From Candidatus Saccharimonadota bacterium (lineage in GTDB: Bacteria > Patescibacteriota > Saccharimonadia > Saccharimonadales > Saccharimonadaceae), in contig JAFYKF010000009.1 of assembly GCA_017537745.1 (NCBI GenBank), positions 62,001 to 126,000 of the forward strand: a DNA stretch of 64,000 nucleotides, read 5' to 3'. The notes beneath the pieces were generated by a model. The model did not search any database and was not told the DNA's origin. It saw only the letters and a list, made by a program, of their open reading frames with translations. Positions 39,059 to 62,807 of the stretch are shown one piece after another. The position numbers and the translations under genes were made by a program. How positions within the stretch are numbered: position 1 is the stretch's first letter; the number at the start of each line of letters is the position of its first letter.

Positions 39059-39087
39059 TAGAAATTTAACAACAAATTAACAAATAA

Positions 39088-39540
39088 TTATATGTCCAAA
39101 TCGTCCAAATCAGCTAACTCTGCACGGGTTTTTTCAGCAAGATCGGAAGTCTCCTCAGACGGCTCTTCCTCATCTTCGACTTCTTCTTCAACCTCGGCCT
39201 CTTCGGCCTCTTCCGGCTCTTCAGCAGGAGCTTCTTCTTCAGCCTTTGACTCTGGCGCTGGAGCTTTGCGCCTCTCGCGCGGCTCACCATCTTCATCAGT
39301 GTTGACAATCTTCAAATTATAGCGCGCATCTTGCTTGGTGCCAAGCGCCCTAAGAAGCATTCTAATAGATTGCGCCGTCACACCGCGCTTACCAATCACT
39401 CTACCTACATCTTCTGGATCAACGGTAAGCGACAGCAAAACGCCTTTCTCATCAATTTTTCGGTCCACCGATACTTTATCTGGATTGTTGACTAAGGTTT
39501 TTACGATATATTCTACGAATTGTTGGTCAATAGTAGCCAT
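39088..39540 (-). CDS. khpA: KhpA-type KH RNA-binding protein with acidic tail
   Basis: A 150-residue protein. Residues 1-about 78 are a single KH domain with VGRVIGKRGVTAQSIRMLLRAL (GxxG loop GKRG) and the VEYIVKTLVNNPDKV lead seen in KhpA. The remaining 70 residues are almost pure Glu/Ala/Pro, roughly doubling the family's length. KhpA binds RNA, usually with KhpB, and is commonly next to rpsP as here. RBS GGAG is upstream, with an AGTTGTGTTATAAT promoter block also found before rpsP. Confidence 0.88.
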   Translation of the reverse strand: MATIDQQFVEYIVKTLVNNPDKVSVDRKIDEKGVLLSLTVDPEDVGRVIGKRGVTAQSIRMLLRALGTKQDARYNLKIVNTDEDGEPRERRKAPAPESKAEEEAPAEEPEEAEEAEVEEEVEDEEEPSEETSDLAEKTRAELADLDDLDI

Positions 39541-39646: not shown

Positions 39647-39675
39647 TTGACAGCTCCTAAGTGCTCATGTATAAT
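39647..39675 (+). promoter_or_regulatory. Consensus sigma-70 promoter of a candidate small RNA
   Basis: TTGACA (39647-39652), exactly 17 nt, TATAAT (39670-39675): a perfect consensus on the plus strand between khpA and rpsP, both of which point the other way. No gene start follows. Confidence 0.8.
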
Positions 39676-39681
39676 AAAACA

Positions 39682-39778
39682 TAAGCTAACTAACTGCGAG
39701 TCAGCTTGAAAAGTTACAAACACAAAAAGTTGAGAGCTTGTATATGTCTAAAAAATCACCTCGTTGCGGTGATTTTTT
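39682..39778 (+). ncRNA. Candidate small RNA of about 97 nt
   Basis: Transcription from the consensus promoter should start near 39682 and stop at the strong hairpin 39750-39778. The RNA would have a 5' hairpin (AAGCT-A-ACT with AGT-C-AGCTT, 39683-39707), an A-rich single-stranded middle with GAAAAGTTACAAACAC, and the terminator. An ATG at 39745 opens a frame that runs through the terminator with no Shine-Dalgarno, so coding is unlikely. It does not look like 6S, 4.5S, tmRNA or RNase P RNA by length or known motifs. Function unknown. Confidence 0.6.
39750..39778 (+). terminator. Terminator of the candidate small RNA
   Basis: AAAAAATCACC and GGTGATTTTTT form a perfect 11-bp stem around TCGTTGC, with the T-run on the plus strand. 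Confidence 0.85.
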
Positions 39779-39784
39779 GGTGAT

Positions 39785-39814: not shown

Positions 39815-40198
39815 CTATGCCTCAGCTGGCGCTTCCTCAGCAGGAGCTGCCTCAGCTGGCGCTTCAGACGCCGGAGCTTCCTCTTTTGGCTGATTTTTAC
39901 GAAGTTTATCGGCATGTTTAGCCTTAACAGACTTCGCTGGAGCTTTTTTATACCAATCTGGTAGTTTGATGCCATTCTTTTCAAGAATGAGCGCTACACG
40001 AGAAGATGGATGAGCACCATTTTTTAGATATTTGTTTACCGCCTCTTTATCAAGGACGAGCGCCTTGGTGGCTGGGTTGTAATTACCGACCTCAGCTACA
40101 ACGCGCCCAGACAAAGGGTGACGCTGCGCTTCTTGGACGATTATCCGATACATCGGGAGATGTGATCGGCCATTACGCTGCATACGAATCGCAAGCAT
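39815..40198 (-). CDS. rpsP: 30S ribosomal protein S16 with Ala/Glu tail
   Basis: A 127-residue protein. Residues 1-about 85 match S16 (MLAIRMQRNGRSHLPMYRIIVQ, GRVVAEVGNYNP, GAHPSSRVALILEKNGI). The remaining 40 residues are Lys- then Ala/Glu/Pro-rich low complexity (APAEAAPAEEAPAEA), beyond the normal length. RBS AAGGAG. Confidence 0.96.
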   Translation of the reverse strand: MLAIRMQRNGRSHLPMYRIIVQEAQRHPLSGRVVAEVGNYNPATKALVLDKEAVNKYLKNGAHPSSRVALILEKNGIKLPDWYKKAPAKSVKAKHADKLRKNQPKEEAPASEAPAEAAPAEEAPAEA

Positions 40199-40250: not shown

Positions 40251-40277
40251 AAGAAAGGGGGAGCCTCACGGCTCCCC
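40251..40277 (-). terminator. Terminator of the two-gene unit 40266-41334
   Basis: GGGGAGCC/GGCTCCCC hairpin followed by a T-rich run on the minus strand. The stop codon of the upstream gene lies inside the loop. Confidence 0.8.
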
Positions 40278-40877
40278 ACGATTCTCTTCCTTTTTGAGGA
40301 GAACTGATTCCTTCTGTTTGGTATTCATGATACGCAGCACACCCTGCATGGACATGCGGCGATGCTCGCGCATCACTTTCTGAAGCTCGTTCCAGAACAG
40401 ACGCCGATTCTCGTCGTCATGGAAGATGACTACGGGGCTCCGGTAAGGCTTATCTAGAAGCGGCTTGCCTTCATGGTCCACAACCGCCTCACAGTCAAAC
40501 GTGAGCCAATCGATAAACTTTTCGGGTTCCACCGTCCGCAGCCCATCACGAGCCAAAGCTTCATTCAGCTCATTCACGAGGCTCAAACACCGCGCATAAC
40601 AGCCGATGGGCTTTTTGAAATTCCTACCAACAGCACAGTCCAGCTTCTTAAAACCTTCTTCGAGCGTCCGAAAAGACGCCTGATCACAACGCGCTCCCTT
40701 CAGGAAACGCTCAGAGAAATACCGTTTAACTTTCGATGAAATTTCCGTCAGCGGCACATCGTACTGCAGCCAGAGATTCATCTCGTATTGTGCCTTCCGG
40801 ACCTTAGCGAGCTTATTGATTGCCGAGCCAACGCCAGCAAACAAGTCTTTCACTATGTCTTCATACTCTCTTGCCAT
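40266..40877 (-). CDS. Hypothetical protein
   Basis: A 203-residue protein that I do not recognise. It is soluble, mainly helical in appearance, with Lys/Arg/Glu-rich stretches and a basic C terminus (MNTKQKESVLLKKEENRGEP). No signal peptide or membrane segment and no known catalytic motif. It starts 4 nt after the stop of the gene at 40882 with a GGGGTGAAATA-like leader and shares that gene's G+C-rich codon use. The two genes form a self-contained unit with a consensus promoter and terminator. Confidence 0.65.
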   Translation of the reverse strand: MAREYEDIVKDLFAGVGSAINKLAKVRKAQYEMNLWLQYDVPLTEISSKVKRYFSERFLKGARCDQASFRTLEEGFKKLDCAVGRNFKKPIGCYARCLSLVNELNEALARDGLRTVEPEKFIDWLTFDCEAVVDHEGKPLLDKPYRSPVVIFHDDENRRLFWNELQKVMREHRRMSMQGVLRIMNTKQKESVLLKKEENRGEP

Positions 40878-48583: not shown

Positions 48584-48612
48584 TTGACAATTTGATTAAT
48601 GTGTGATATAAT
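48584..48612 (+). promoter_or_regulatory. Consensus promoter of the small membrane protein gene
   Basis: TTGACA (48584-48589), 17 nt, TATAAT (48607-48612) with TGA extension; leader of about 35 nt with GGGAGG. Confidence 0.8.
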
Positions 48613-61391: not shown

Positions 61392-62807
61392 TTATTGTTT
61401 TGGGAACAAAGGTATTTCGGGCGGTGTTATCGGATTAGCAAATACTGCCGATACTTTCTCAGTCGCATTGGGCAAAAACGGCGAAAGTAGATAATTGGCA
61501 TTGAGTAATTCACAGATTAAACTTTTTAGACACTTGTCCAATTCTTCCTTTTTGCCGTCCTTGGCAAGACTCCAAGGCTTTTCCTCATCAATCTTACGAT
61601 TCAATCCTTGTAACTTTTCCCACACATAGTCCATCGCTTTTGAATATTCAAAACTATCCATCAATTCCTTATATTCTTGCGGTATCACAGGCTCAAAAGC
61701 TTCACCAAGCTCAAAGTTATTCTTTGACGCCAAGGTTGCAAGCCTCTGCACTAAATTACCCAAATCATTTGCGAGTTCATTATTGTAAGCCTCATCAAAC
61801 TTTTCCCATGTAAAATCCGAATCTGCAAAAGTATCAATGTGACGCAAGAAATAATAACGAAATCCATCTATGCCATGCCTATTTAAGACTTCCATTGGAT
61901 CAACCACGTTGCCAATCGACTTTGACATCTTTTGCCCATTTGCAAGCACCATTCCATGTGACACCAAGTGACGAGGCAAAGGCAAACCAAGCCCGATTAG
62001 CATAGCTGGCCAAATTATAGCATGAAATCTTAGGATATCTTTACCCACAAATTGAGCCTGTGCTGGCCACCAATCATCAATCGAAGTCTCTGGATATCCC
62101 AAAACAGTAAGATAATTTGACAATGCATCTATCCACACATACATCACTTGCGATTCATCGCCCGGTACTGGCACGCCCCAAGTTAATTGTTCCACCGAAC
62201 GCGAAACCGACACATCGGGTGATTCATCCAAAAGTTTCAGCACCTCTTTCTTACGAAAATCCGGCAAAACCAACATCTCGCCCAATTCAATAGACCGAAC
62301 GATTTGTTCCTTAAAATCTGAAATTCGAAAATAATAATTCTCTTCCGAAAGTTGCTCATACGGCTTCTGATGGTCAGGACAAACCCCATGATTTTCTTCC
62401 ACTTCTTTATCGGTCACAAACCTTTCACACCCAGTGCAATACCAGCCCTCATATTTTGCTTTATAGATATGCGATTCCAGACGCTTCCAAATTTCCTGAC
62501 ATCGTTTTTGATGCTCCGCATCCGTCGTCCGCACAAAATCCGTGTATTCCACGCCCAAAGAATGGATGAAATCTTGGAATTTCTTTGCGTTTTCCGACAC
62601 ATATTGTTCTACGGGCTTACCAAGTTCTTCAGCTTTTTTAAAAATCTTCCCGCCATGTTCATCGGTACCAGCCTGCAAACGCACTTCATTCCCAATTAAT
62701 CTATTATAGCGCACACAAACATCTGCAAGACAATAATCCATTGCATGTCCAATGTGTGGCTGACCATTTACGTACGGAATCGCCGTCGTAATATAAACTT
62801 TACTCAT
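61392..62807 (-). CDS. metG: Methionyl-tRNA synthetase
   Basis: A 471-residue class Ia synthetase: HIGH is PHIGH (17-21), KMSKS is KMSKSIGNV (about 293), and the connective zinc knuckle keeps YCTGCERF and GVCPDHQ. It lacks the C-terminal EMAP-like tRNA-binding domain, as the shorter bacterial form does. RBS AGGAGG. It follows the Pro/Ala-rich protein gene by 12 nt and may share its transcript. Confidence 0.97.
   Translation of the reverse strand: MSKVYITTAIPYVNGQPHIGHAMDYCLADVCVRYNRLIGNEVRLQAGTDEHGGKIFKKAEELGKPVEQYVSENAKKFQDFIHSLGVEYTDFVRTTDAEHQKRCQEIWKRLESHIYKAKYEGWYCTGCERFVTDKEVEENHGVCPDHQKPYEQLSEENYYFRISDFKEQIVRSIELGEMLVLPDFRKKEVLKLLDESPDVSVSRSVEQLTWGVPVPGDESQVMYVWIDALSNYLTVLGYPETSIDDWWPAQAQFVGKDILRFHAIIWPAMLIGLGLPLPRHLVSHGMVLANGQKMSKSIGNVVDPMEVLNRHGIDGFRYYFLRHIDTFADSDFTWEKFDEAYNNELANDLGNLVQRLATLASKNNFELGEAFEPVIPQEYKELMDSFEYSKAMDYVWEKLQGLNRKIDEEKPWSLAKDGKKEELDKCLKSLICELLNANYLLSPFLPNATEKVSAVFANPITPPEIPLFPKQ

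Follow-up and report, generated by a model that had tools for sequence, protein, structure and literature searches.

Background

Among the closest described systems to the element reported here are small RNAs (sRNAs) associated with KhpA and KhpB in Firmicutes and Fusobacterium. In other bacteria, the RNAs bound by these two proteins include sRNAs (PMC10117718, PMC12456014). Titrating RNAs of the CsrB/RsmZ type, kissing-loop antisense RNAs (RNAI/RNAII) and type I 3' untranslated region (3' UTR) sRNAs are comparable in part. Here, we describe an sRNA gene next to khpA in a Candidatus Saccharimonadota bacterium of the genus Ca. Nanosyncoccus. It lies in a stretch of 64,000 nucleotides (positions 62,001 to 126,000 of contig JAFYKF010000009.1, assembly GCA_017537745.1), which is called the window.

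The RNA belongs to a family which is absent from Rfam, and no paper describing it was found. At the gathering thresholds of Rfam 15 there was no match in the window locus or in 20 relatives, in line with an earlier statement that the RNA could not be assigned to a known class. With E-values up to 10 only weak matches were obtained, all far below the gathering scores and corresponding to shared terminators. Judged by titles and abstracts, and with subscription papers aside, the literature on sRNAs of Saccharibacteria, Patescibacteria and TM7x contained nothing relevant, and in two large papers on the discovery of non-coding RNAs we found no mention of the words searched for Saccharibacteria or rpsP.

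The sRNA gene and its conservation in the genus

We regard the element as almost certainly a real and conserved sRNA gene. It has three sequence properties of an independently transcribed bacterial sRNA, i.e. its own promoter, its own terminator with compensatory changes, and no conserved open reading frame (ORF). A reading of the letters made beforehand without database searches (the sequence-only reading) had proposed a new small RNA of about 97 nt with a 5' hairpin. Support comes from deep conservation, promoter and terminator included, from the fact that the unit as a whole has been moved and inverted between species, from compensatory changes and from the empty Rfam search; a transcript of that length is predicted, and the hairpin is found both in the alignment and in the fold (Table 1). 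Pfam-backed ORFs place khpA and rpsP on the minus strand and the RNA on the plus strand, opposite to both flanking genes as had been claimed.

The promoter agrees with TTGACA-17-TATAAT in all 12 bases, as read before, but its rank as the best promoter of the window is shared with a second perfect one (Table 1). Across the 838-kb genome there are 40 perfect promoters with a spacing of 16-18 nt, where dinucleotide frequencies would predict 0.69, and such a site is therefore very likely a working promoter. The terminator, described earlier as a perfect stem of 11 bp, indeed has 11 Watson-Crick pairs and can be extended to 39748-39780 by a U-G and a C-G pair, where the trailing GG pairs with C39748 and T39749. 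The terminator region has an A/U-rich base and a conserved TTTTTTGG. The fold of the whole transcript has z = -3.05.

Matches obtained with blastn were confined to the same genus and came from rumen and gut Saccharibacteria, including Ca. Nanosyncoccus alces, while no match was obtained in the viral contigs searched. A genus set of 111 distinct homologous sequences was read, and 86 of them were aligned. Of the 111, 90 have TATAAT as the -10 box and 59 have TTGACA or TTGACT as the -35 box. The loop AACUGCGAGU and GUUGAGAG are the invariant elements of the genus. An A-rich centre had been pointed out in the sequence-only reading; it is indeed A-rich, but it varies in length and is the variable part of the RNA, the conserved parts being the blocks AACTGCGAGT and GTTGAGAG on either side. 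Six of the 13 pairs of the terminator stem are changed on both sides, and the whole structure holds 22 compensatory cells against 5.5 in shuffles.

The genus contains two subtypes: that of the window, with a hairpin at the 5' end, and another with a shorter hairpin following an extra one. RNAalifold on a MAFFT alignment of both subtypes gave 2 pairs only, because the long and the short hairpins were aligned out of register, and structures set by hand were used instead. An extra 5' pairing, ACAU/AUGU, considered for the window type was dropped, as its bases lie ahead of the likely +1.

A covariance model, R1, was made from 14 sequences including the window RNA; E-values of R1 and of the model R2 described below are rough, as calibrations were short. 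The window RNA is matched over positions 1-96 with 100.5 bits, its own sequence being one of the sources of the model. Matches to R1 were found in 149 of the 174 genomes of the genus (102 of the 110 good ones), nearly always in a single copy, and also in sister genera. Among the eight R1-negative congeners, three are without any khpA match, one has khpA cut off, one (L352) has the RNA in diverged form, and in the remaining three (L353-L355) there is no copy close to khpA.

The absence of an ORF, noted earlier, is confirmed in that neither start codon nor reading frame is kept among relatives. A tiny mRNA, in which AUGUCUAAAAAAUC... at 39744 would encode a leader peptide, could be supported by an AUG with GAGAG a few nucleotides upstream in most congeners. 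However, several species have UUG or CUG in place of the AUG, one locus (L085) has a stop at codon 3, and hairpin lengths are not multiples of three, so that this explanation is hardly credible. An idle promoter which happens to lie beside a bidirectional terminator of the minus-strand genes would fit the A and T runs flanking the hairpin on both sides, but sequence conservation and covarying helices across an order leave next to no chance for it.

Table 1. Positions of the predicted sRNA gene, its parts and neighbouring features in the window.
Feature	Position	Strand	Basis or remark
Sigma-70 promoter TTGACA-17-TATAAT	39647-39675	+	12/12 consensus bases
Predicted sRNA, ~97 nt	~39682-39778	+	start inferred from the -10 position, end from the U run
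5' hairpin AAGCU...AGCUU	39683-39707	+	alignment and fold
Invariant loop AACTGCGAGT	39692-39701	+	identical in 86/86 aligned sequences
Invariant block GTTGAGAG	39729-39736	+	identical in 86/86 aligned sequences; order-wide core
Intrinsic terminator stem AAAAAATCACC/GGTGATTTTTT	39750-39778	+	11 Watson-Crick pairs, loop TCGTTGC
khpA, KH-domain RNA-binding protein	39088-39540	-	Pfam PF13083 (KH_KhpA-B), 76.9 bits
rpsP, ribosomal protein S16	39815-40198	-	Pfam PF00886 (Ribosomal_S16), 48.9 bits
TATAAT over the khpA stop	39087-39092	-	sequence; no sRNA behind it here
ORF of 203 aa between rpsP and rnc	40266-40877	-	no Pfam match; retained in part of the genus
Second perfect sigma-70 promoter	48584-48612	+	ahead of a 133-codon ORF (MDNSKIFNLYVDEVKEMTTDKVVFD...)

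An order-wide family and its core fold

A second model, R2, was made from 14 sequences, all of them from genera other than that of the window. It matches 287 of the 393 genomes of the order Saccharimonadales and recovers the window locus with E = 4.4e-5. The background of R2 is real, since at E up to 0.01 the model also hits 10 (~9%) of the 115 genomes taken from outside the order, and therefore the order-wide claim rests on loci that were read individually. Matches outside the order (class, phylum) were taken as background; the one that was read, L245 (E = 4.9e-5), is only a terminator beside another hairpin. Sixty loci outside the first set were fetched and 54 were kept. L245 was set aside as a false match, L210 for having khpA on the other strand, and L228-L231 as four congeners of the window genome with the RNA placed elsewhere. 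Judged from these sequences, the RNA family is kept across the whole order, with a length of about 85-140 nt depending on the species.

Outside the genus the core can be written AAAGCUC(U)-[AUGCGAG]-P2b-(A)GAGCUUUAUGUG. This ancestral core consists of a helix AAGCUC/GAGCUU, a bulge AUGCGAG and then another helix, which covaries strongly. The invariant parts are GCGAGC and GAG. The order-level MAFFT alignment (A5) is one column off in P2b, and its pairs were counted sequence by sequence instead: 177 of 180 cells are paired in 36 sequences with 18 arm combinations, against a maximum of 145 in 2000 shuffles. Of the checks proposed in the sequence-only reading, covariation and conservation in relatives gave compensatory changes in the terminator helix and in P2b, with promoter, loops and terminator all kept.

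In other genera, the GUUG half of GTTGAGAG forms the 3' arm of P2b, and GAG is the start of the 3' arm of P2a. In two sequences (L236, L242) an extension of P2a has G-C in place of A-U and so speaks for the long-range form. Nearly all sequences could also fold a local GCUC/GAGC hairpin, which competes with that form. The elements of the core are recognisable in the window as AAGCU ... AACUGCGAG ... CAGCUU/AAGUUG ... GAGAGCUU, where either of the competing pairings may dominate. The 3' arm of the 5' hairpin can pair alternatively with 39727-39732 (CAGCUU/AAGUUG), as seen in the minimum free energy structure, and the 5' arm can also pair with AGCUU further down (alignment, fold).

Position relative to khpA

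All 54 kept loci, which come from other genera, have the RNA behind khpA and on the same strand, and the distance from the khpA stop to the start of the model is at most 100 nt in 46 of the 53 loci with a located stop. TATAAT overlaps the khpA stop (GAT ATA TAA T) in 37 of the 54, and the -35 box lies within khpA codons in most of these genera. The gene beyond the RNA is mixed and falls into 24 similarity clusters, and the constant neighbour is therefore khpA; in 20 of the 54 loci the far-side gene is one which we take, from our own reading of its sequence, to be trmD. Adjacency to khpA, remarked on in the sequence-only reading, is accordingly more meaningful than was claimed, being the ancestral and order-wide arrangement.

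Among congeners the RNA is found between khpA and rpoB, on their strand, in 103 of 145 loci, a count in which some contigs appear twice; it is inverted in the same gap in 16 and placed elsewhere in a few. In the window genome it sits in the khpA-rpsP gap on the opposite strand. By comparison of these sequences, the ancestral place is behind khpA, and in the window genome the RNA is shifted to the rpsP side and inverted. The khpA gene of the window still ends in DLDDLDI-stop, and the TATAAT over this stop (Table 1) is probably a relic of the ancestral promoter position. As the unit moved whole, with promoter and terminator, and was flipped in strand, there is strong evidence for an independent gene acting in trans, and the RNA is very probably trans-acting.

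The RNA might instead act in cis, serving khpA as an insulator, a terminator or a stabiliser of its 3' UTR, or serving the following gene as a leader. This would agree with the 20 of 54 loci where khpA, the RNA and trmD follow one another in a single direction. Such a role is nevertheless highly improbable: the RNA has its own promoter in nearly all lineages, the downstream gene varies, and the unit of Nanosyncoccus is inverted or shifted into different gaps while keeping its promoter and loops. A housekeeping structural RNA, either a 6S-like polymerase decoy or a component of some stable particle, could lie behind khpA merely by gene order, since the RNA is near-universal in the genus and single-copy, and the order rnc-rpsP-khpA is conserved anyway. 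We consider this improbable, as cmscan of the locus (E up to 10) gave no match to 6S (RF00013), signal recognition particle RNA, RNase P or transfer-messenger RNA, the long bulged rod of 6S is missing, and the far-side neighbours are not conserved.

The loop motif elsewhere in the genome

Loop words were counted in 1.24 Mb, comprising the own genome (G000) and two further species, with the RNA itself left out. AACTGCGAG occurs 9 times, and 5 of these lie in loops of intergenic hairpins, where 0.017 were counted per permuted word; for UGCGAG, 9 occurrences in such loops compare with 1.25 for permuted words. A second sRNA accounts for two of the five AACTGCGAG hairpin loops, and the remaining ones are in hairpins that resemble terminators. 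The special status of the loop word in the genus is an independent hint at the function proposed below.

The second putative sRNA is located outside the window (G000:C1, minus strand, ~11407-11290) and also in L340-L351. It has a perfect TTGACA-17-TATAAT with a partly conserved spacer, a hairpin loop AACUGCGAG, a block UAUGUAUGACCUG and a terminator. A strict pattern search recovers it from 25 of the 174 congeners.

Some of the terminator-like hairpins show the complement CUCGCA in the sense of the nearest gene (rpsJ, rpmE, tsf and an orphan transcript). CUCGCA(GUUA) is found in the terminator loops behind rpsJ (G000:C2:19787), rpmE (G000:C11:8943) and tsf (G035:C9:99078). The orphan transcript, on the minus strand of G000:C7 from 11603 to ~11460 and thus outside the window, has a perfect promoter and no ORF, and 11 nt of its terminator loop UUUCCUCGCAGUUAG are the complement of the window RNA's invariant loop.

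The RNA might accordingly act as an antisense sRNA, whose loop CUAACUGCGAG kisses CUCGCAGUUAG in mRNA 3' terminator loops or in another sRNA, and for which KhpA would not be needed. In mRNA sense, CUCGCA lies in the terminator loops of rpsJ (S10), of a 228-aa membrane protein and of rpmE (L31) of the own genome, i.e. in 3 of 75 genes against 0.034 expected; the tsf terminator of G035 has the loop CCUCGCAGUUAGGA, and the 11-nt complement closes the orphan transcript. On the other hand, the cases are few, two of them are convergent terminators which can be read either way, CUCGCA was found in 1 of 92 in congeners and in none in G444, and a target search at start codons with the invariant segments stayed at chance level, with no strong complementarity. 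We consider this explanation rather unlikely.

Several further perfect promoters outside the window (G000:C2, C6, C8 and C11) precede genes starting with MSSKLLINVNDATP... or MSSKLLVNLIDP..., a multi-copy family encoding proteins of roughly 580-1150 aa with similar 5' leaders.

Function

The gene, its promoter and terminator, conservation, helices, linkage to khpA and independence of position and strand are established at the level of sequence. We propose that the RNA works through KhpA/KhpB, forming a ribonucleoprotein together with KhpA and the partner protein KhpB, and give this a probability of roughly 0.45, mainly because the sRNA gene has long been linked to khpA. KhpB is also encoded in the genome (G000:C3:44317; KH and R3H), behind rnpA-yidC. 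The single-copy gene, with a sigma-70 promoter and a terminator of its own, would give a structured small RNA; the helices of this RNA would hold out the loop or bulge UGCGAG and the GAGAGCUU segment as a contact site for KhpA/KhpB, and the RNA would either titrate these proteins or be carried by them to mRNAs. Transcription, binding by KhpA and the regulatory outcome are here what we infer.

Several observations weigh against a role of KhpA. In L096, L097 and L229 the RNA is no longer linked to khpA, or less closely so, and in L210, of another family, khpA is on the other strand. In three congeners (L353-L355) the khpA locus is intact and no copy of the RNA is found near khpA. The loop motif is not enriched in G444, the sole other genus tested, and several terminators may instead present its complement. 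Loss of the linkage does not forbid an obligate partnership with KhpA, being compatible with it yet not predicted by it. The KhpA-linked, trans-acting RNA is ranked first and base-pairing second, and the two are mutually compatible. A wider proposal, that an order-wide sRNA gene is fused to khpA, with its promoter within the last khpA codons, and that the UGCGAG loop is a shared recognition element of a KhpA/KhpB RNA network including the second sRNA and the terminator loops of ribosomal protein and elongation factor genes, is speculative and, taken as a whole, unlikely.

Should this wider proposal hold, an ultra-small episymbiont would have a system of post-transcriptional control whose sRNA chaperone is neither Hfq nor ProQ. 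The location of the RNA behind khpA makes the RNA targets of KhpA/KhpB, and their recognition, testable in a minimal genome. As it is nearly universal in the genus and order-wide, the RNA can be sought in RNA-seq of cultured episymbionts, and it offers a concrete handle on RNA-based regulation in tiny parasitic bacteria.

Comparison with known systems

Like the KhpA/KhpB-associated sRNAs of Firmicutes and Fusobacterium, the RNA is a small RNA in bacteria with the KhpA-KhpB pair; those sRNAs were found by co-purification, whereas for the RNA of Saccharibacteria the evidence is genomic linkage. With titrating RNAs of the CsrB/RsmZ type it shares a short length, its own promoter and terminator, and a repeated loop motif (here UGCGAG/UGAGAG, 2-3 times). 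The motif is, however, not GGA, which does not occur in the window RNA, it is present in one to three copies, no CsrA is implied, and titration is a prediction. Kissing-loop antisense RNAs may be resembled in the invariant loop with a 10-11 nt complement in a few other hairpin loops of the same genome, some of ambiguous orientation, but here the RNA is trans-encoded and chromosomal, the complement lies in mRNA terminator loops and the interaction is a predicted one. Finally, as in type I 3' UTR sRNAs, whose promoter is inside the upstream gene, the -35 box lies in khpA codons and the -10 box on the stop in most other genera, whereas in the genus of the window the RNA gene is detached from khpA or inverted to it.
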